A stretch of 64,000 nt of DNA from Clostridium massiliamazoniense (GTDB lineage: Bacteria; Bacillota; Clostridia; Clostridiales; Clostridiaceae): positions 1,302,001 through 1,366,000 of the forward strand of contig NZ_LN879468.1 in assembly GCF_001403635.1 (NCBI RefSeq), in the 5' to 3' direction. Under the pieces are notes generated by a model. The model was not told where the DNA came from, searched no databases, and worked only from the letters and a program-made list of their open reading frames with translations. Below are positions 15,850-64,000 of this stretch, piece after piece. Each line of letters begins with the position of its first letter. Within the stretch, counting starts at the first letter, position 1. The translations under genes and the position numbers were made by a program.

Positions 15850-15899
15850 AAAAAATAGAAGGGATATATCAAAATTACAGATATATCCCTCCTATTTTT
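15850..15899. terminator. Bidirectional terminator between CBM gene and selB
   Basis: GGGATATATC pairs with GATATATCCC, with outer AAAAATA pairing TATTTTT. The hairpin lies between the two convergent genes and touches the selB stop codon. Confidence 0.9.
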
Positions 15900-17796
15900 A
15901 TACTAAAATACGCTTATCTTCTACTCTTTTAGTTATTTTTTCTCTGTCTAAATATTCAAGGATAGGTACTAAATATTTTCTTGAACTATCTATTAATTCC
16001 TTTAATTGTCCTATATTTATTGAACCATTTTCTTTTATATAGTTTATAACTAAGTCTTTAACTTTTTCTACGTTATCTTTATGAAGAGTTATTCCTTCTC
16101 CAATATAGATTAATTCCTTAGTATCAATTAAATAATTATATATTTCCTTAGCTTTAGACTTTTTATCTATTTTTCCTATTATATCTTCTGCCTTCTCTGT
16201 TTTAAATCCACCTTTTAAGTATTTCTCTATAAGTATTTCCTTAATTTTATTTTCCTCTTCAGTGAATTTAACCTCTCTTTCAAAGGCCCAAACTAAAGTT
16301 TCATTAAAGTCTATTATTTTTCTTTCCTTTAATAAAACTAACAGCTCATTAAATATATTTCCTTTTGCTTTAAAGTCTAATATATTCTTTTTAAATTCTT
16401 CTTTATTTATACCCAGCTTAAAGCTTTCTTTTGAATAGTATTCTTTAAAATATTTTTCTATTTTATTAGAAAGCTCTGATAAATATCTACTGTGTATATA
16501 AAAATCTTTTCCAATTCTTATAATAATCTTTTCTTCTTCTAATTTTTCAAAAGCTTTATCTATTTCTTCTTCAGTTGAATTGAAACTATTTCTTATTTCA
16601 GAAACTGTAGTCATTTTATTCTCATTATTTATTATATAATTACTTATTCTATCATTTAGAGAGCCATCTTCTTTCATCTTTAAATCCATAATATATTTTT
16701 CATTAAATCTTTTAGCTTTATTGGCCTTTGCTTCTAAAATTGTCCCTCCACCTATGGTATACATAGGTGAATAAGTCCTTATAATTATTTTATCCTTGTA
16801 TTTTGAACAAAGTTCCTCTTCAAGTCTTATTTGAACATTTGCTGTTTCTCCAACTTTAAGTTCTTCTCTATCCAATAAAACAACTCGTCCCATTATTTCA
16901 TTAGTATTGCAATAAATTCTAACTCTATCCCTGTTTTTTATGCTTCTTTCTGCATCCTTTAATAAAGTAACTTTACAGTCTATAATAAAGCTTGATGTTT
17001 CCTTTGCTGGTTCACCTATAACCATACCTCTTTTTAATTCTTCTTTTTTTAGGTTTGGTAAGTTTATAGCAGTTCTTTCTCCAGCATTAGCAAATTCTCT
17101 TTTTTCATTATGAACTTCAATTCCTCTTACCTTTGAAATTAAGCCTCCTGGATTTATTTCTACTTCATCATTAACTGAAATAGTTCCACCAAGAGCTGTT
17201 CCTGTAACAATTGTTCCGATTCCCTTTACAGAAAATATTCTATCTATAGGCATTCTAAATAATGCTTCTTTATTTTTTTCTTCAGCATCCTTTACTAAGG
17301 TTCTTAATTCATTAATTAAATTATCTATACCCTCTTTAGACTTACTACTCACCTCTACTATTTTACAATTTTCTAAAAATGAACCTTTTACCATATCATT
17401 TATATCTTCTTTTACTATTTCTATAATATCCTCAGAAGCTAAATCCTTTTTAGTTAATACTATTATTCCTGACTTTATGTCTAAGAGCTTTAATATATTA
17501 AAATGCTCTATAGTCTGAGGCATTACTCCCTCATCTGCTGCAATAACTAACATTACTATATCAATAGATGCTGCTCCACCTATCATATTCTTTATAAACT
17601 TTTCATGACCTGGAACATCTATAATAGCAGCTCTTATATCTTCATCTAAATTAAAATAAGTATAACCATTTTCTATAGTTATCTCCCTTAACTTTTCTTC
17701 CTTTAATCTATCTAAATCATTACCTGTAAGGGCTTTAACTAAAGATGTTTTTCCATGATCTATATGACCTGCTGTCCCTATAACTATATGCTTCAT
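15898..17796 (-). CDS. selB: Selenocysteine-specific elongation factor SelB
   Basis: 632 residues, normal for bacterial SelB. An EF-Tu-like GTPase opens with GTAGHIDHGKTSLVKAL (G1), DVPGHEKFIKNM (G3) and LTKKDLA (G4). Beta-barrel domains follow with FSVKGIGTIVTGTALGG, and the C-terminal third has the winged-helix repeats that bind the SECIS hairpin of mRNA. It delivers Sec-tRNA to UGA codons. It overlaps selA by 4 bp, so translation is probably coupled. The presence of the full set with a Sec-containing SelD supports an active selenocysteine pathway. Confidence 0.96.
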   Translation of the reverse strand: MKHIVIGTAGHIDHGKTSLVKALTGNDLDRLKEEKLREITIENGYTYFNLDEDIRAAIIDVPGHEKFIKNMIGGAASIDIVMLVIAADEGVMPQTIEHFNILKLLDIKSGIIVLTKKDLASEDIIEIVKEDINDMVKGSFLENCKIVEVSSKSKEGIDNLINELRTLVKDAEEKNKEALFRMPIDRIFSVKGIGTIVTGTALGGTISVNDEVEINPGGLISKVRGIEVHNEKREFANAGERTAINLPNLKKEELKRGMVIGEPAKETSSFIIDCKVTLLKDAERSIKNRDRVRIYCNTNEIMGRVVLLDREELKVGETANVQIRLEEELCSKYKDKIIIRTYSPMYTIGGGTILEAKANKAKRFNEKYIMDLKMKEDGSLNDRISNYIINNENKMTTVSEIRNSFNSTEEEIDKAFEKLEEEKIIIRIGKDFYIHSRYLSELSNKIEKYFKEYYSKESFKLGINKEEFKKNILDFKAKGNIFNELLVLLKERKIIDFNETLVWAFEREVKFTEEENKIKEILIEKYLKGGFKTEKAEDIIGKIDKKSKAKEIYNYLIDTKELIYIGEGITLHKDNVEKVKDLVINYIKENGSINIGQLKELIDSSRKYLVPILEYLDREKITKRVEDKRILV

Positions 17797-19184
17797 TTGT
17801 TTATTCTCTCCTCTAAAGCCTTTAAAATAGTCTCATATTCATCTTCTTTAATAGTTCTCACATCTAATAATACTTTTCCCTTATTTATTCTTGATATTAT
17901 AGGTGTTTTATATTCTCTAAGACTTTTCTCTATTTCATTGGCCTCTAAACTCTTACTTACTATCTCTATAACATAGCTAGTAATTTCTTCACCAGGCATT
18001 GATCCCCCACCAACAAAGGAAGTATTCTCGCTTATAGAAAAGCTATAATCTAACTCTATAGAATCTAGCATTGATTTTAATTCAAGTGCCTTTTTCTTTA
18101 ATTCCTCTTTAGTAAGTGAAATCATATTAAGGGTTGGAATTTCCTTCATTACACTTTCTTTATTTAAATATTCCATTAAAGTTGCCTCTAAGGCTGCTAA
18201 AGTTATTTTATCTACTCTTAGTGCTCTCATTAATTGATTCTTTTTTAATCTTTCTATATATTCTTTCTTACCAACTATGATTCCAGCCTGTGGACCACCT
18301 AGTAATTTATCTCCTGAGAAAGTAATTATATCAATTCCACTTTTAACTACATCCATAACAGTTTTACTTTCACTAAAGCCTTCTTCTGATAAATCAACAA
18401 GAATTCCACTTCCTAAATCCTCCATAGTTATTATATTATGTTTTTTACCTAAGGAAGCTAATTCTTCAGAACTTACTTCCTTTGTAAAACCTATTATTTT
18501 AAAGTTAGAACTATGAACTTTTAATAATAAGGAAGTATTATCTCCTATAGCATTTTCGTAATCAGATAAATGAGTTCTATTAGTAGTTCCCACTTCTTTT
18601 AGAAAACTTCCTGATAGCTCCATTATTTCTGGCACTCTGAAGGAACCCCCTATTTCAACAAGTTCTCCCCTAGACACTATAACCTCTTTATTCTTAGATA
18701 ATTCATTTAAAACAAGCATAACGGCTGCTGCATTATTATTTACCACAACAGCATCCTCAGCTCCTGTTAGTTCTTTTAAAATATTACTTATGTGATCATG
18801 TCTTGACCCTCTTTTTCCATCTTTTAAGTTATATTCTAAATTACTATAACCTCTAGCAACGTTTATCATGGCCTTTATAGAATTTTCACTTAAAAGAGAC
18901 CTTCCTAAATTAGTATGTATAACTATTCCAGTAGCATTTATTACTCTTTTTATAGAAGGTTCCTTTTTTATTGATAACTTATTTTCTACTTTTCCTCTTA
19001 TTTCCTCTATAGTTGGAACTGAATCTTTTTCTTCATTTAAAATAGCTCTTCTATAAAAGTCTAAAGTTTCTCTTAATTCCTTAAGAATACTTTCTCTTCC
19101 AAAGATACCTATTAAATTTTTTACTTTCTGATCATTTATTAATAAATCCATTTTAGGTAAATTTCTTAATAATTCATTTTTCAT
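17793..19184 (-). CDS. selA: L-seryl-tRNA(Sec) selenium transferase SelA
   Basis: 463 residues. It is a PLP enzyme that converts Ser-tRNA(Sec) to Sec-tRNA(Sec) using selenophosphate. Seen: the N-terminal tRNA-binding start LLRNLPKMDLLI, INATGIVIHTNLGRSLLSE at about 82-100, the NNNAAAVMLVLN segment, and the PLP Lys at about 293 in SGDKLLGGPQAG. The first 4 bp of selB overlap its end. The selD stop is 36 bp upstream; AAGGACG is the ribosome binding site within that gap. Confidence 0.96.
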   Translation of the reverse strand: MKNELLRNLPKMDLLINDQKVKNLIGIFGRESILKELRETLDFYRRAILNEEKDSVPTIEEIRGKVENKLSIKKEPSIKRVINATGIVIHTNLGRSLLSENSIKAMINVARGYSNLEYNLKDGKRGSRHDHISNILKELTGAEDAVVVNNNAAAVMLVLNELSKNKEVIVSRGELVEIGGSFRVPEIMELSGSFLKEVGTTNRTHLSDYENAIGDNTSLLLKVHSSNFKIIGFTKEVSSEELASLGKKHNIITMEDLGSGILVDLSEEGFSESKTVMDVVKSGIDIITFSGDKLLGGPQAGIIVGKKEYIERLKKNQLMRALRVDKITLAALEATLMEYLNKESVMKEIPTLNMISLTKEELKKKALELKSMLDSIELDYSFSISENTSFVGGGSMPGEEITSYVIEIVSKSLEANEIEKSLREYKTPIISRINKGKVLLDVRTIKEDEYETILKALEERINK

Positions 19185-19220: not shown

Positions 19221-20258
19221 CTATTCAACTAAAATATAAGCTTCTCCATTAAATTCTTCCACAGTTCCTATTACTTCGCTTTTAATTTCTAGTTTATTTA
19301 ATTCTGAAATTATATCAACGAAGTCTTCTGCTTTACATGTAAATACTAAGCCTCCTGAAGTTTGTGGGTCAAATAATAAATCTTCAAGCCAACCATCTAC
19401 ATTATTTAATTCATACTGTCCTTTTAAATGTTCCTTATTAGAATAAACTCCTGCTGCTGCAAAGCCCATAGCTGAGTATTCCCTAGCTTCCTCTATATAA
19501 GGTATGTTATCTTTAAATAACTTAAAAGTTTTATTTGATGGTTTAGCCATCTCGAATATATGTCCCATAAGTCCAAAGCCTGTTATATCTGTACATGCTG
19601 TTATATTATAATTAAGTATTATTTCACAGGCATATTTATTTAAATAAGTCATATTTTTTACTAATTTATTATATGCTTCTTCAGAGGCTATTCCCCCTTT
19701 GAATGCATTACTAATCATTCCATTACCAAGTGGTTTTGTTAAAATTATTATATCCCCTGTTTCTGATCCATAATTTCTTAAAACCTTATCTGGATGAACA
19801 ATACCAGTTACAGAAAGACCATATTTAGGTTCTTCATCCTCTATAGTGTGTCCTCCAACAACTACAGCACCAGCCTCTAAAACTTTTTCAGCTCCACCTC
19901 TTAAAATTTCACCTAATATTTTAGGATCTAAACAATTTGGAAAACCTACTATGTTTAATGCCACTATCGGTTTTCCTCCCATGGCATAAACATCACTAAG
20001 TGAATTTGCCGCTGCAACTTGCCCAAAAGTATATGGATCATCTACCATAGGAGTAAAAAAGTCTAAGGTTTGAATTGTTGCTATCTCATCACTTAATTTA
20101 TATACTGCTGCGTCATCAGAAGTATCAATTCCTACAATTAAATTTTCATCTACCATTTTAGGTATATTTTCTAATATATTTGAAAGAGCCTCCGGCCCCA
20201 TTTTAGCTGCTCATCCTCCTGATTTAGTTAGAGAAGTTAATTTTAAATTCTTACTCAT
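19221..20258 (-). CDS. selD: Selenide, water dikinase SelD, itself a selenoprotein (in-frame UGA at codon 16)
   Basis: 345 residues when read from the ATG at 20258 through one in-frame TGA (20213-20211). It makes selenophosphate from selenide and ATP. The N-terminus reads MSKNLKLTSLTKSGG-U-AAKMGPEAL: the UGA falls exactly on the catalytic Cys/Sec position, followed by the expected catalytic Lys (AAK). GAGGTG lies about 10 nt before this ATG. The next ATG downstream (20201) would remove both catalytic residues and has no good ribosome binding site. The ATP-binding segment with TSDDAAVYKL, the GG-rich loop AVVVGGHTIEDEEPKYGLSVTGI and the late DPQTSGGLVF are all present. It heads the selD-selA-selB operon; automatic annotation would shorten it. 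Confidence 0.93.
20179..20213 (-). promoter_or_regulatory. UGA(Sec) codon and candidate bacterial SECIS hairpin in selD
   Basis: TGA occupies 20213-20211. In the next 30 nt, GAGC right at the UGA can pair with GCUC, leaving a GGGGCC-containing loop. Bacterial SECIS elements sit directly 3' of the UGA, so the position fits; the pairing is short and not computed. Confidence 0.5.
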
Positions 20259-56976: not shown

Positions 56977-59827
56977 GTGAAAAGTTATATAGATAATGTA
57001 GTTTACTTAAATCTTTTAACTACAGGGAAATCTATTGACAATGATTTTATTTTTAAAATAGACGGATTAAAAATAAATAACAATAAAGAAACATACTTTA
57101 GTAGTTTTATAAATATACCTTCCGAAGCTTTATGTATTAATAGTAATTTTTTTAAAGAAGAAACTCTAGAAAACTTATCTAAAGCTCCATTAATTGAAAA
57201 CATTATGGATGATTTTAAAGATTTTCTTTCTGATTGCCCTATAATTATTTTTAATAACCAAAATCAACAGGAACTTTTGAAAAAGCTTTTTTCATCTTAT
57301 AATATTAATTTTAATAACACAATATTAGATTGCTTTGAATTATTTATGCTTCTAGAACCATGGCATAATGATTATTCACTAGAAAATCTTTTATTAAAAA
57401 AATTCTATTTGGAGCTTCTATGACTACTTAGTTAATTTCAATATTTCAGAAGAAATGTTTAAAGATAAATTATATAGAAATACTGACTTTTACGAGGAGC
57501 CTAATAAAACTTTAGAGTTAAAAGAAAATTGTGAGGAAATATTAAAAGATCCTAGAGGATTCTCTTCCCTAAACAATAAATTTAAATTTAGGCAAGGTCA
57601 GTATGATGTTATGAAAACAGTTAGAAGTTCCTTAGAAAAAAATTTAATTTCTATTATGGAAGCTCCCACTGGTACTGGAAAAAGTATTGCTTACTTATTA
57701 CCAGCTATAACAAAAGCTTATTATAAAGGTCAAAAAATATTTATATCAACAAATACTAAAGAACTTCAACGTCAACTTGTACATAAAGACATTCCATTTT
57801 TATTAAAGAGCTTTAATTTAAATTCTAAGATTGATGTTATAAATATAAAAGGAAAATCTAATTATCTTTGCATGGAACTTATTCAATCTATTTTAAATGA
57901 TAATGTCTTTAACAATACTAGATCCTTAAAGGAAAATATGGCACTTGTTTATTTGTATAGATATTGCTATAAAGGAAAAGCTGGTGATAAAGAAGAAATA
58001 ACCTCTGAAGCTGAAATCCATCTAAACCTTAAGGAAGCAATTAAGCATTGTCTTTGCGATTCAGATGGTTGTAATATTAAAGCTTGCCCCTATGAATGTT
58101 ATTATAAAAACACAGTTGAAGCCCTTAAAACAAGTACTATTGTTATATTAAATCATTCTCTCTTATTAAAATGGCCCTATGATAGCACCATTGAAAATGT
58201 AATTATAGACGAAGCTCATAATTTAAGTGATGCAATTTTTGATGCCTATGCAGCAATACTTAATTCTAGTGAATTAAAATCCTTATTACTAGAAATATTA
58301 GATTATAAAAATAAAAAAGGTTACTTAAATTATATATGGAAATATACACCTAACAGAACTACTAACTTCAGAGAATTAGTAAGAGATAAAATAGATGTAT
58401 CTTTCTTAACTATAGACAGAATAACCTACTTAGTTTCTAAGGATCAAAGGGAATCCTATGACTTAGATGTAAGTTTTTCAAAAGAAAAATTCCTAAGCTA
58501 TGGAAAGGTAGTTCATGAATTAAAGGTTTTAAAAGAAGATTTAATTGACCTTTATAAACCTCTAAATTCTTTTATTGAGACTAATAATCTTGACAATAAT
58601 AAAACTAGAAACTTAGGAGAAATATTCATTAAAAAAGTTGAACGTATTAAGGAACTAATAGATTTTATAGATATATTCACCACTGTAGAACAAGATGAGA
58701 ATAAGTGCTATGGATTTTTCATAGAAAAAAATAAAAAGTTCTGGGAATGTTATATAAAGGATTTAAATTCATCTCTTATTTTCTTTGAGAGATTTTTAAA
58801 TAATTTAAAAAGTTGTAGTTTTCTTTCTGCAACTTTAAAAAATAATGGTACTTATAAATCCTTTAAAAATTCTCTTGCTATAGATAAAGCAAATAATAAC
58901 TTTTTAAAAGAATTAGAAGATATACCTCAAAGTTTTGACTTGAAAAATCGTTCTATTATTTATAATCCAATTGATTGCCCTAAGTATTTTGAACCTGGTT
59001 TCATAGATTTTATGGTTTCTAGTACTATAAAAATCCTTGAAAATTCTAACTGTAATATATTAATTTTGTTTACTAGTAAAAAGCGATTAATTGAATTTAA
59101 AAATAAAATTTTACCTTTTACAAGTACTAATAAAATAAACCTTTTTGAAAGAAAACAAGATATAAAGAAATTATCATTAAAAGGTTCTAGAAGTATCCTC
59201 TTAGGCTCTAAAGGATTCTTTGAAGGAATAGATATTCCTGGAGATTTATTGAATATGGTACTCATAGATAAAATGCCTAATATAAATCCATATAATCCAC
59301 TTTTCGAAAAGTTCATAGAAAATGGATTTGCCTTTAATACTATCAATACTCCTAGAGCTACAATTTCATTTAAACAATGCTTTGGAAGACTAATAAGAAC
59401 TGAATTAGATTATGGATATTTCATAATATTTGATAAGTGTAATCAAAATACTATTTTAGATAATGTTTCAAAAGAATATAAAGGAGTAAAAACTATATCT
59501 GCTCCAATTAATAATTTATTAAGAGATATTCCTCTAAGATTTAAATATTGGAATTCATTAAATATAGAATTAGTAATAAGTTCAACAATTAGAGAACTTG
59601 AAGAATTTCTTAAAACTCATGCTAGAGGTATTTACGGTAATAATACTCATCTTGAATTAGCATTAAATGATTTTTATGAAGAAAAGTTTCAAGAACTTAA
59701 TATAAAAAAGAGATTTCACATATCAACTAAAGATAAAAAATTAAATTTTATATATGAAGATAATTCATACTTAAATTTAAAAAATAAATCCCTAATAATA
59801 AAAGTAATTTTTTCAGTATTTAATTAA
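56977..59827 (+). pseudogene. dinG: DinG-type helicase with degenerate exonuclease domain, split by a frameshift in an A7 tract
   Basis: The GTG at 56977 (AAAGGAGGG ahead) opens a 148-codon frame ending at 57423. Its N-terminus VYLNLLTTGKS is a DnaQ-type domain in which the Asp/Glu of the usual DLETTG are lost. A second frame, from the ATG at 57455 to 59827 (790 residues), is an XPD/DinG helicase: EAPTGTGKS (Walker A), FeS cysteines in HCLCDSDGCNIKACPYEC, IIDEAHNL (DEAH), LLGSKGFFEGIDIP, and QCFGRLIRTE (motif VI). At 57396-57402 there are seven A. Removing one joins the frames as LLKNSIWSFYDYLVNFN and yields 949 residues, close to Bacillus DinG. Thus an A insertion, slippage-dependent expression, or a read error; the helicase part itself looks intact. 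Confidence 0.82.
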
Positions 59828-61359: not shown

Positions 61360-62799
61360 CTAATTAGTTTTATTTTTTAAAATTCCTAATACTACACCTA
61401 ATATATTACTCTCTTTTCCCTTTAATTTTATTGGCTCATATTTTGCATTTGCTGGCATTAGTAATGGTTCTTTTGAATTTAAATTCAATGTCTTTAAAGT
61501 TGCACTTCCTTCTATATCAACAGCTACAATGTCATTATGATAAGCGGAGTTTTGTGACTTTACTATAACCAAATCCCCATTATTAATATTTTTTTCTATC
61601 ATACTATCCCCTTTTACATGTAGCATAAATAAATTTTTATTTTTTCCTACAAAATAACTAGGAATATTAAATGTGCCCTCTTCTATATCATTAATTAGTA
61701 TTGGATTTCCAGCTGCAATATCACTATATACTGGAATACCTATTAAATCATTTTCTATGATACTTTTATTTTCCTCTTCATTAACTATAACTTCTTTTAA
61801 AGTGTTTCCATTATCTATTTCAAAGCTTAATACTCTTCCTTTATTTAAATCAACATAATCATATTTTTCTATGAATGATAATTTCTTTTCTACTTTCTTA
61901 TTAAACTTATTTTTTAACACAAAATTTTTTCCTCTAGTATCTCCTACTATAGCACTTATAGATTTTCCACTATAACTCCAATGATTTTTATCTATTTCCT
62001 CACCTTTATTTATAATCAATATAAAAGATCCATACTTTTCACTTTTTAAGTTTTTTATAAATATTAATTCAGCTCTACTAAGCCTTTCACAATCATCTAC
62101 TATTATATGTGGGTACTTTTTTCCATACTTTCTACTATAATTTATAGCAAAAATAGCATCATCATACTTGTCCATATATCCTAATTTATGAATCTTATAA
62201 GAATATCTATCTCTTATACTATAAATTTGATTCCTACTTTCAGAATATTTTCTTAATGATTTTCCTCTTCCTATTCTACTAACAGCGAAATATTCATCTC
62301 TTGTAAAATAATTAGATTTTATCCACTCTACTTCTTCTAATAAATAACTTATATCTATACTTTTTATAAATTTAGTAAGTTTATTATCTTTACTAAACTC
62401 TTCATATACAGACTGTAATATTTCTATTTTTTTATCTAATTTCAAGTAGACTAACTTTAACTTATTTTCTCTTATATATGATTTTACATAAGAATCTATT
62501 AATTGATTAATTTTTGAGAATTCTATCTGTTCTTTGTTTTTTATTGAAAATAAAGAATAAAAACTATGTTCCATTTCAAGTTTGGCTTTTGAATAAATAT
62601 TTTTTGCTTTTTTACTATGTTCTTCTCCACTATGAACTAGTAAAACCTTATCCTTATCATAAATGCAATAATTTCTTTCTAAATCAACTGCTTTGTAAAT
62701 AGAAACCGTTGTCTTCCCTGTACCTACAGCACCTTTTAAAATTTGCACACCTGTTTTTTTATTTTTTAAAAATTTATCTTGTCCAACTTGAAATTCCAC
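61360..62799 (-). CDS. Truncated UvrD-like NTPase fused to a LexA-type S24 autoprotease domain
   Basis: 479 residues from a GTG with AGGAG 8 nt upstream. N-terminal part (1-320) is a superfamily-1 helicase-like NTPase: Walker A GAVGTGKTT (23-31), the YDDAIFAINYS segment, and Walker B as IIVDDCERLS (232-241; Asp-Asp where UvrD has Asp-Glu). Helicase motifs IV-VI and the second RecA lobe are missing. C-terminal part (about 353-475) is a complete S24 domain: A363-G364 scissile bond in IAAGNPI, catalytic Ser399 in KGDSMIE, and Lys436 in GSATLKTL. There is no helix-turn-helix. Known for S24: RecA-stimulated self-cleavage between Ala and Gly. Inferred: DNA damage would cut the NTPase from the S24 tail. 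Confidence 0.85.
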   Translation of the reverse strand: MEFQVGQDKFLKNKKTGVQILKGAVGTGKTTVSIYKAVDLERNYCIYDKDKVLLVHSGEEHSKKAKNIYSKAKLEMEHSFYSLFSIKNKEQIEFSKINQLIDSYVKSYIRENKLKLVYLKLDKKIEILQSVYEEFSKDNKLTKFIKSIDISYLLEEVEWIKSNYFTRDEYFAVSRIGRGKSLRKYSESRNQIYSIRDRYSYKIHKLGYMDKYDDAIFAINYSRKYGKKYPHIIVDDCERLSRAELIFIKNLKSEKYGSFILIINKGEEIDKNHWSYSGKSISAIVGDTRGKNFVLKNKFNKKVEKKLSFIEKYDYVDLNKGRVLSFEIDNGNTLKEVIVNEEENKSIIENDLIGIPVYSDIAAGNPILINDIEEGTFNIPSYFVGKNKNLFMLHVKGDSMIEKNINNGDLVIVKSQNSAYHNDIVAVDIEGSATLKTLNLNSKEPLLMPANAKYEPIKLKGKESNILGVVLGILKNKTN

Positions 62800-62846
62800 T
62801 ATTTATTCTCCTTTCTCTTAATAATATATCTCTTATTGTACTCTTA

Positions 62847-63024: not shown

Positions 63025-64000
63025 CTACATTTTAGTCCATAATTCTAAAGCTCTTGAAACTAAATCATTTTGTCTAGCTTCTAAAACTTCCATATTCCAT
63101 TCCTTATTTGAGAATATTTCTTTACTTATTTTAAATTCACTTTTCTTACTTAAGTATTGCTCAACTTTTTCTGAGAAAGGCTTATTATTAACTCTTGTAT
63201 TCTTAGCACCTGTAATTAAAACAAGATTTCCAAATTTATTTACCCAATTTCTTCTTTGGTCTGCTTTAAAGTTGCTTACCCAATATAAATCCTTTGAGTT
63301 TCTTGGTAATATATGTTCTATCATTAACTTATTACTGATTTCTAGTTCTTTTCCTTCTATTAATTCAAGTTCCATTCTTAAGAAGACATACTTTGGAACT
63401 GTCATTCTACCCTTACTATAGAAATCTATATCATTTAATGCATTTTTAAAGTAATTTATTGTTCTATCTAAATCACCAACAAATACATCATGGTTCTTTA
63501 ATTCTTCTAAAGAAGATACTTCATCTATAGCTTCTATTATTTTATATACTCTATCTAATCTTTCAGCAAAAGCATTACCATTTACCCAGTCAATAACAAC
63601 TCTCTTCTCTAAGATTTTTAAGAATTCTACTGTTGCTTCTTCATCATTAAACTTCTCTATAAATCTTATTAAAGCTGCTACCCACTCGTCATATGGAAGT
63701 AATTCTTTCATTATGTTTACTAAATTTTTGTAATATACAGCTTTATTTTTATCGGCAACATTTATATTTCCATCAATAACATAAGTACTATATACTTCTT
63801 TTAAGCTATGCATATGATTTATAAAATCTTCACCTATATATCCTTCTTTATTTAAGAATATATTTTTAGCAAATTCATCATATAAGTTACCATCAGCTTT
63901 TGATTTTAAAATCATAGCTCTCATATAGCCTATAAGTTTTTCAATTCCATCTTTACCTAAATCTATTTCATCATTTTCCCATATTTCAGTAAAATCTTTT
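63025..64000 (-). CDS. DUF262/DUF1524 (GmrSD-like) protein, 5' end outside window
   Basis: The frame is open to the right edge, so at least 324 C-terminal residues are seen and the N-terminal DUF262 part must lie beyond. The C-terminal DUF1524 domain has the HNH-like motif MIEHILPRN, then W-VNKFGNLVLITGAKNTRVNN, in which His, Asn and the second Asn form the nuclease site. This pairing is that of GmrSD, a type IV restriction system that cuts modified DNA, and of related defence proteins. An internal ATG at 63924 could be mistaken for the start. Whether the missing part has the DGQQR nucleotide site cannot be judged here. Confidence 0.85.
   Translation of the reverse strand, partial: KDFTEIWENDEIDLGKDGIEKLIGYMRAMILKSKADGNLYDEFAKNIFLNKEGYIGEDFINHMHSLKEVYSTYVIDGNINVADKNKAVYYKNLVNIMKELLPYDEWVAALIRFIEKFNDEEATVEFLKILEKRVVIDWVNGNAFAERLDRVYKIIEAIDEVSSLEELKNHDVFVGDLDRTINYFKNALNDIDFYSKGRMTVPKYVFLRMELELIEGKELEISNKLMIEHILPRNSKDLYWVSNFKADQRRNWVNKFGNLVLITGAKNTRVNNKPFSEKVEQYLSKKSEFKISKEIFSNKEWNMEVLEARQNDLVSRALELWTKM

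Follow-up and report, generated by a model that had tools for sequence, protein, structure and literature searches.

A degenerate UvrD-type helicase domain fused to a LexA-type S24 autoprotease domain in Clostridiaceae, and its longer helicase-nuclease relatives

Gene and domain architecture

The analysed DNA (the window) is a 64,000-nucleotide housekeeping stretch of the 28% GC chromosome of Clostridium massiliamazoniense, in which mreB, minD, obg and pyk were read from translations. It encodes a fusion of a UvrD-type helicase domain 1 (lobe 1) to an S24 domain, here called the short form, which is adjoined by an exonuclease gene and a GmrSD-type gene. A long form of about 815 residues carries a complete UvrD-like helicase (UvrD N and C), an HSDR_N_2 nuclease and an S24 domain on one chain. 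The features of the window gene are as follows, with counts referring to a set of 100 short forms.

61360..62799, minus strand: short-form gene, helicase-domain-1/S24 fusion, 479 aa, GTG start
62808..62814, minus strand: ribosome-binding site AAAGGAG, read from the sequence
61894..62799, minus strand: UvrD-type domain 1, degenerate, residues 1-302
62707..62733, minus strand: Walker A GAVGTGKTT, residues 23-31; P-loop GK[ST] in 96/100
62086..62106, minus strand: Walker B IIVDDCE, residues 232-238; Mg-binding Asp in 94/100, catalytic Glu in 19/100 (here Asp)
61750..61878, minus strand: linker, residues 308-350, marking the deletion junction; resembles the nuclease-to-S24 stretch of long forms
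61360..61749, minus strand: S24 autoprotease domain, residues 351-479
61708..61713, minus strand: predicted self-cleavage bond Ala363-Gly364; IAAG in 100/100
61603..61605, minus strand: nucleophile Ser399; 100/100
61492..61494, minus strand: general base Lys436; 99/100, with a gap in the contig-cut copy L159

The first-pass annotation had described an S24 domain fused to a truncated UvrD-like NTPase, and this fusion is real, the 479-residue frame being one of 100 distinct short forms. PF00717 spans the whole S24 domain (E 2.2e-27, profile positions 1-115 of 116), and the Ala/Cys-Gly bond and the Ser and Lys of the dyad are all present. The N-terminal part is predicted by structure modelling to adopt the domain 1 fold of UvrD-like SF1 helicases, with residues 1-302 corresponding to the parts named 1A and 1B. 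From residue 299 on, the model has pLDDT values below 50 and the S24 half is unfolded there. Of the SF1 motifs I, II (DExQ), III (Q) and IV (R), the window protein retains just motif I and, in motif II, the first Asp; Asp replaces the Glu of motif II, motif III reads NKGEEID and the motif IV Arg is absent. Profile searches gave no match to a second RecA lobe (lobe 2) in the window protein.

S24 self-cleavage is the trigger of the repressors LexA and CI and of UmuD, which are switches and are not constitutively matured; in LexA and UmuD the S24 domain dimerises, and cleavage at Ala-Gly splits off the N-terminal part. The window protein shares the S24 domain, the Ala-Gly site and the Ser-Lys dyad with LexA (TIGR00498), but its partner is a helicase lobe, the LexA HTH domain PF01726 is absent from its matches at E values up to 1, and it scores 104.4 against the TIGR00498 cut-off of 110.95, so that a LexA-type repressor was rejected. 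UmuD and UmuDAb likewise use S24 self-cleavage as a switch without a classical LexA HTH. In contrast to UmuD (PRK10276; 74.8 bits, cut-off 110), the window protein carries a 350-residue lobe and linker ahead of S24, and umuC is not among the adjacent genes. UvrD, PcrA and Rep (SF1A) have the domain 1 fold and Walker A in common with it, whereas the short form lacks lobe 2 and has lost the catalytic Glu, the motif III Gln and the motif IV Arg. A relation to HelD was also rejected, as PDB profile matches span only residues 3-54. By the features tested, the window protein is neither LexA, UmuD nor a helicase, and it most likely works like LexA or UmuD. Literature searches of open-licence papers gave, by title and abstract opening, no description of the fusion.

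Distribution of short and long forms

The family set comprised 206 genomes of Clostridiaceae, the family of Clostridium tunisiense (genome G002, locus L012), of which 127 matched residues 1-345 at 1e-8. Sorting by frame length covered 123 of these 127 genomes, and the resulting counts are therefore lower bounds: the short form occurs in at least about 111 of the 206 genomes and the full long form in at least 27, with both together in at least 19 and the short form alone in at least 88. A canonical LexA HTH domain was found in 193 of the 206 genomes, and thus the fusion does not replace LexA.

Classification with HMMs built from the family genes yielded 148 rows, of which 8 were set aside and 140 kept. 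The 148 rows included 100 short forms (lobe 1 and S24 only, including the two contig-cut copies L053 and L159), 31 four-part long rows and three helicase-nuclease rows without S24, among others; no S24-bearing intermediate between short and long forms was found among the rows classified in this way. The 31 long rows represent 28 distinct genes once one partial copy and two repeats are subtracted. Long-form loci are L094-L109, L113, L176-L184, L190, L191, L193-L199 and L001 (5001-7433).

Besides the window protein, all 99 short forms come from the 206 Clostridiaceae genomes. A search of 391 genomes drawn evenly from the class gave 11 matches, none of them beyond those of the family search. Among 398 genomes of the phylum, the search gave 26 matches, and among the matches listed, short-size frames covering the full profile occurred only in G199 and G146, both members of the family. 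Seven weaker partial matches with frames of 475-561 aa in six genomes may be ordinary UvrD proteins. Nine of the ten other loci fetched from the phylum search encode the four long-form parts with [IV][AS]AG and GDSM, and the tenth lacks S24. A relative of 810 aa from Ilyobacter has the full layout of UvrD-helicase, UvrD_C, HSDR_N_2 and S24, and is called 'S24 family peptidase' in the gene table of the plasmid collection. As four-part relatives occur outside Clostridiaceae, the long form is wide and sporadic in its distribution, and the short form appears from these searches to be a product of the Clostridiaceae.

A mobile or phage gene was considered and rejected, as the phage collection contained no match and two viral scans gave none that was confirmed; the plasmid collection gave three matches, one of them with S24.

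Conserved and lost residues

The Ala-Gly bond, Ser and Lys needed for self-cleavage had been noted in the first-pass annotation, which proposed their conservation in homologs as a test. Site and dyad proved (almost) invariant in the family and hence this test was passed: IAAG, Ser and Lys are near-invariant in short forms while the remainder of the protein diverges. In lobe 1, the P-loop and the Mg-binding Asp are retained together in 91 of the 100 short forms, and nine, including one contig-cut copy, lack one or the other. The motif IV Arg was found in a single short form, and none combines the hydrolytic Glu with the motif III Gln. The loss of Glu, Gln and Arg suggests that lobe 1 probably no longer works as an NTPase but is a pseudo-enzyme whose retained residues point to ATP binding. 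The view that the protein probably cannot unwind DNA is strengthened, since these residues are mostly lost in addition to lobe 2.

In 12 of 24 close pairs, picked so that no sequence recurs, lobe 1 had dN/dS values of 0.055-0.29 (12/12 pairs), and S24 had values of 0.024-0.25, below those of lobe 1 in 11 of 12. These low values indicate that neither half is decaying, and on this sequence evidence both halves of the short form are under purifying selection. The loss of a lobe, the nuclease and motifs would fit a decaying, functionless remnant of a defence enzyme, but this reading is scarcely credible, being contradicted by dN/dS well below 1 in both halves, by the invariant protease residues and by the presence of the gene in more than half of the family genomes. 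Another reading is a one-time maturation, in which the newly made chain would soon be processed, leaving the halves to act apart or as a complex. The invariant site and dyad and the lack of an obvious sensor or SOS promoter are compatible with it; however, LexA, UmuD and CI act as switches, and a spent processing domain would need less constraint than the S24 domain shows relative to lobe 1, which makes such processing improbable.

In the long form, 29 rows representing 28 distinct genes (L102 and L115 are the same gene) were compared, and all 29 have K-T-D-E-Q-D-Q-R at the eight motif positions. Their cleavage site is looser, with IAAG in 24, IASG in two, ISAD in one, VSGD in one (Ilyobacter) and a partial site in one, and the catalytic Ser is present in 28 of 29 and the Lys in 29 of 29. 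In a long form from Aminicenantes (L004, 1189-3573), the cleavage region is degenerate and Gly replaces the catalytic Ser; judging from these residues, its S24 domain is probably inactive.

Origin of the short form

In the lobe-1 tree (140 rows), a single branch unites 84 short forms (SH-aLRT 100), and the remaining 16, namely 15 of a second kind and L165, form another branch (99) nested in a set of long forms. In the S24 tree (133 rows, with LexA as outgroup), 84 short forms are again found on one branch (85) and the other 16 group with eight long forms (97), six of which are also in the lobe-1 set. Although built separately, the two trees thus agree in putting the 15 short forms of the second kind with almost the same set of long forms. 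Comparison of 16 of the 100 short forms with seven long forms indicated that short forms resume at the post-nuclease linker of the long forms, and the sequences show that the stretch from lobe-1 motif IV to the pre-S24 linker lacks lobe 2 and the nuclease. The short form is a descendant of the long form by loss of lobe 2 and the nuclease. This loss probably happened twice; a single origin of the short forms was not formally rejected by the AU test (p 0.071 and 0.066, about 0.07), and both trees come from quick searches and contain long branches.

Helicase-nuclease proteins without S24 are encoded at L110 (3998-5965), L111 (3998-5965) and L185 (3005-4942), which form one tree branch with L112.

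The possibility of a split helicase whose lobe 2 is the product of an adjacent gene was rejected after a search of the DNA around the 100 short genes. The sole lobe-2/nuclease match near short genes was a contig-edge frame in L093 with weak lobe-1 and lobe-2 scores.

Genomic neighbourhood and promoter

Gene order around short forms is steady within clades and differs between clades, and no constant partner was found across 41 loci. An operon with the exonuclease was rejected, as this gene is adjacent in only seven of the 41. A LexA box (GAACN4GTTY or its mirror, up to 300 bases upstream) was found at 0 of 41 short genes, including that of the window, and at 0 of 20 long-type genes; for comparison, all three canonical clostridial lexA genes examined have the box, the single lexA-like gene from Aminicenantes lacks it, and 1 of 588 other genes has it. 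The SOS-linked repair or defence role once suggested by the exonuclease and GmrSD-like neighbours was not borne out by these housekeeping surroundings with their clade-specific partners and box-less promoters. Among 71 of 79 short-form neighbour proteins scanned with PADLOC at 1e-15, matches were obtained to Orf5 (1), DEDDh exonuclease (4), DolB (4), PDC-M37B (4) and mad3 (3), the last three of which we suspect to be housekeeping look-alikes, e.g. Clp-type ATPases. Apart from a match to GajB over 28 residues at the P-loop (E 0.0075), the window protein itself matched no curated PADLOC model.

A defence-type neighbourhood was found only for the long form, at many of its loci. The 40 neighbouring proteins of the 20 long-type loci L094-L113 (of which L110, L111 and L112 lack S24) include seven NERD-HRDC and four HNH_4 matches, as well as PDC-S37 (2), PDC-M26A (2), mREase_IV (1) and PDC-S03 (1). 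Ordinary genes such as those for methionine synthase, a hydrogenase-like protein and a coat protein also adjoin these loci. In the one long form scanned, the best PADLOC matches of the helicase were the GajB and 'NERD+UvrD' C3a187 models, from which the long form differs in having an HSDR_N nuclease and S24 on the same chain; no match to the GajA model was found among the 40 neighbours at 1e-15. AddA and RecB likewise combine a UvrD-like helicase with a downstream PD-(D/E)xK-type nuclease in a single protein, but the long-form nuclease matches HSDR_N_2 and is followed by an S24 tail, and the short form has no nuclease. The long form is a candidate protease-controlled defence nuclease and, on the literature searched, is apparently undescribed.

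The shared descent of the two forms in both trees, their co-occurrence in some genomes and the nuclease and restriction genes that often adjoin long forms would be in line with a short form that regulates or inhibits the long form through mixed, dominant-negative S24 dimers, or that acts as an anti-phage component. We regard this as unlikely, given the many genomes with the short form alone, a co-occurrence that is not significant among the family genomes sorted by frame length (Fisher p 0.096) and short-form neighbours that are mostly non-defence genes.

Proposed function of the short form

The almost unchanging key residues of S24 suggest a damage or stress switch other than gene repression. 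Self-cleavage of the short form is strongly implied by its sequence, and we infer a RecA trigger and a target for lobe 1. We see about an even chance that the short form is a domesticated remnant of a helicase-nuclease-S24 enzyme in which an ATP-holding lobe is tied to a self-cleaving S24 domain and is detached by damage-triggered, RecA-dependent cleavage. In this mechanism, lobe 1 would bind ATP without turnover and then dock on its target, which could be DNA, a fork or repair protein or another partner, and the S24 domain would dimerise the protein by analogy with LexA and UmuD. RecA filaments on damaged DNA, or another stress, would induce S24 to cut Ala363-Gly364, separating the lobe of about 42 kDa from the dimerisation domain of about 13 kDa and ending or releasing the activity of the lobe. 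The short form would thereby add a post-translational branch to damage signalling, alongside canonical LexA and with no repressor role itself.

The missing LexA boxes at short and long-type genes and the lack of a constant repair partner are points against a RecA switch. They favour a switch with another trigger, such as a different co-protease, pH, redox or nucleotide state, where ATP binding may license or block cleavage; the kept P-loop and lost hydrolysis would fit such a nucleotide sensor. On the other hand, sites this strictly kept are typical of RecA-responsive LexA and UmuD, and we consider a non-RecA trigger doubtful, albeit a real contender. A precedent for it is IrvR, a LexA-like protein reported to be exempt from the RecA rule (PMC7101444).

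More tentatively, the two forms might belong to an unrecognised protease-controlled family, in which a LexA-type domain checks or switches the anti-DNA helicase-nuclease that carries it, and from which Clostridiaceae might twice have carved an ATP-locked lobe with S24 as a core non-transcriptional arm of the damage response; we lean against this broader scenario while holding it possible. An invariant S24 machine sits on a decayed helicase lobe in the short form, and in the long form S24 is joined to an intact helicase-nuclease. Should RecA control cleavage, clostridial damage signalling would have a direct branch at the protein level, and the long form would couple a restriction-type nuclease to the SOS sensor. 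That the same parts were apparently lost more than once suggests a minimal, readily testable unit.

Other features of the window

The GmrSD/Orf5-type gene lies at the window edge (63025-63999, minus strand) and is represented by its C-terminal part (PF07510, 8e-30; PADLOC Orf5, 5e-137); a relative of 580 aa is encoded at the corresponding place in L054. At 56977-59827 (plus strand), a DinG-type helicase with a DnaQ-like exonuclease part occurs as two frames of 148 and 790 aa. Its syntenic relative in L054 is a single 991-aa frame, and the window locus may be a split gene. Furthermore, the window contains selD (19221-20258, minus strand) with an in-frame TGA after MSKNLKLTSLTKSGG and before AAKMGPEAL, which looks like a selenoprotein gene from its sequence, and the adjoining stretch at 15898-19184 was read as selB and selA from translations.
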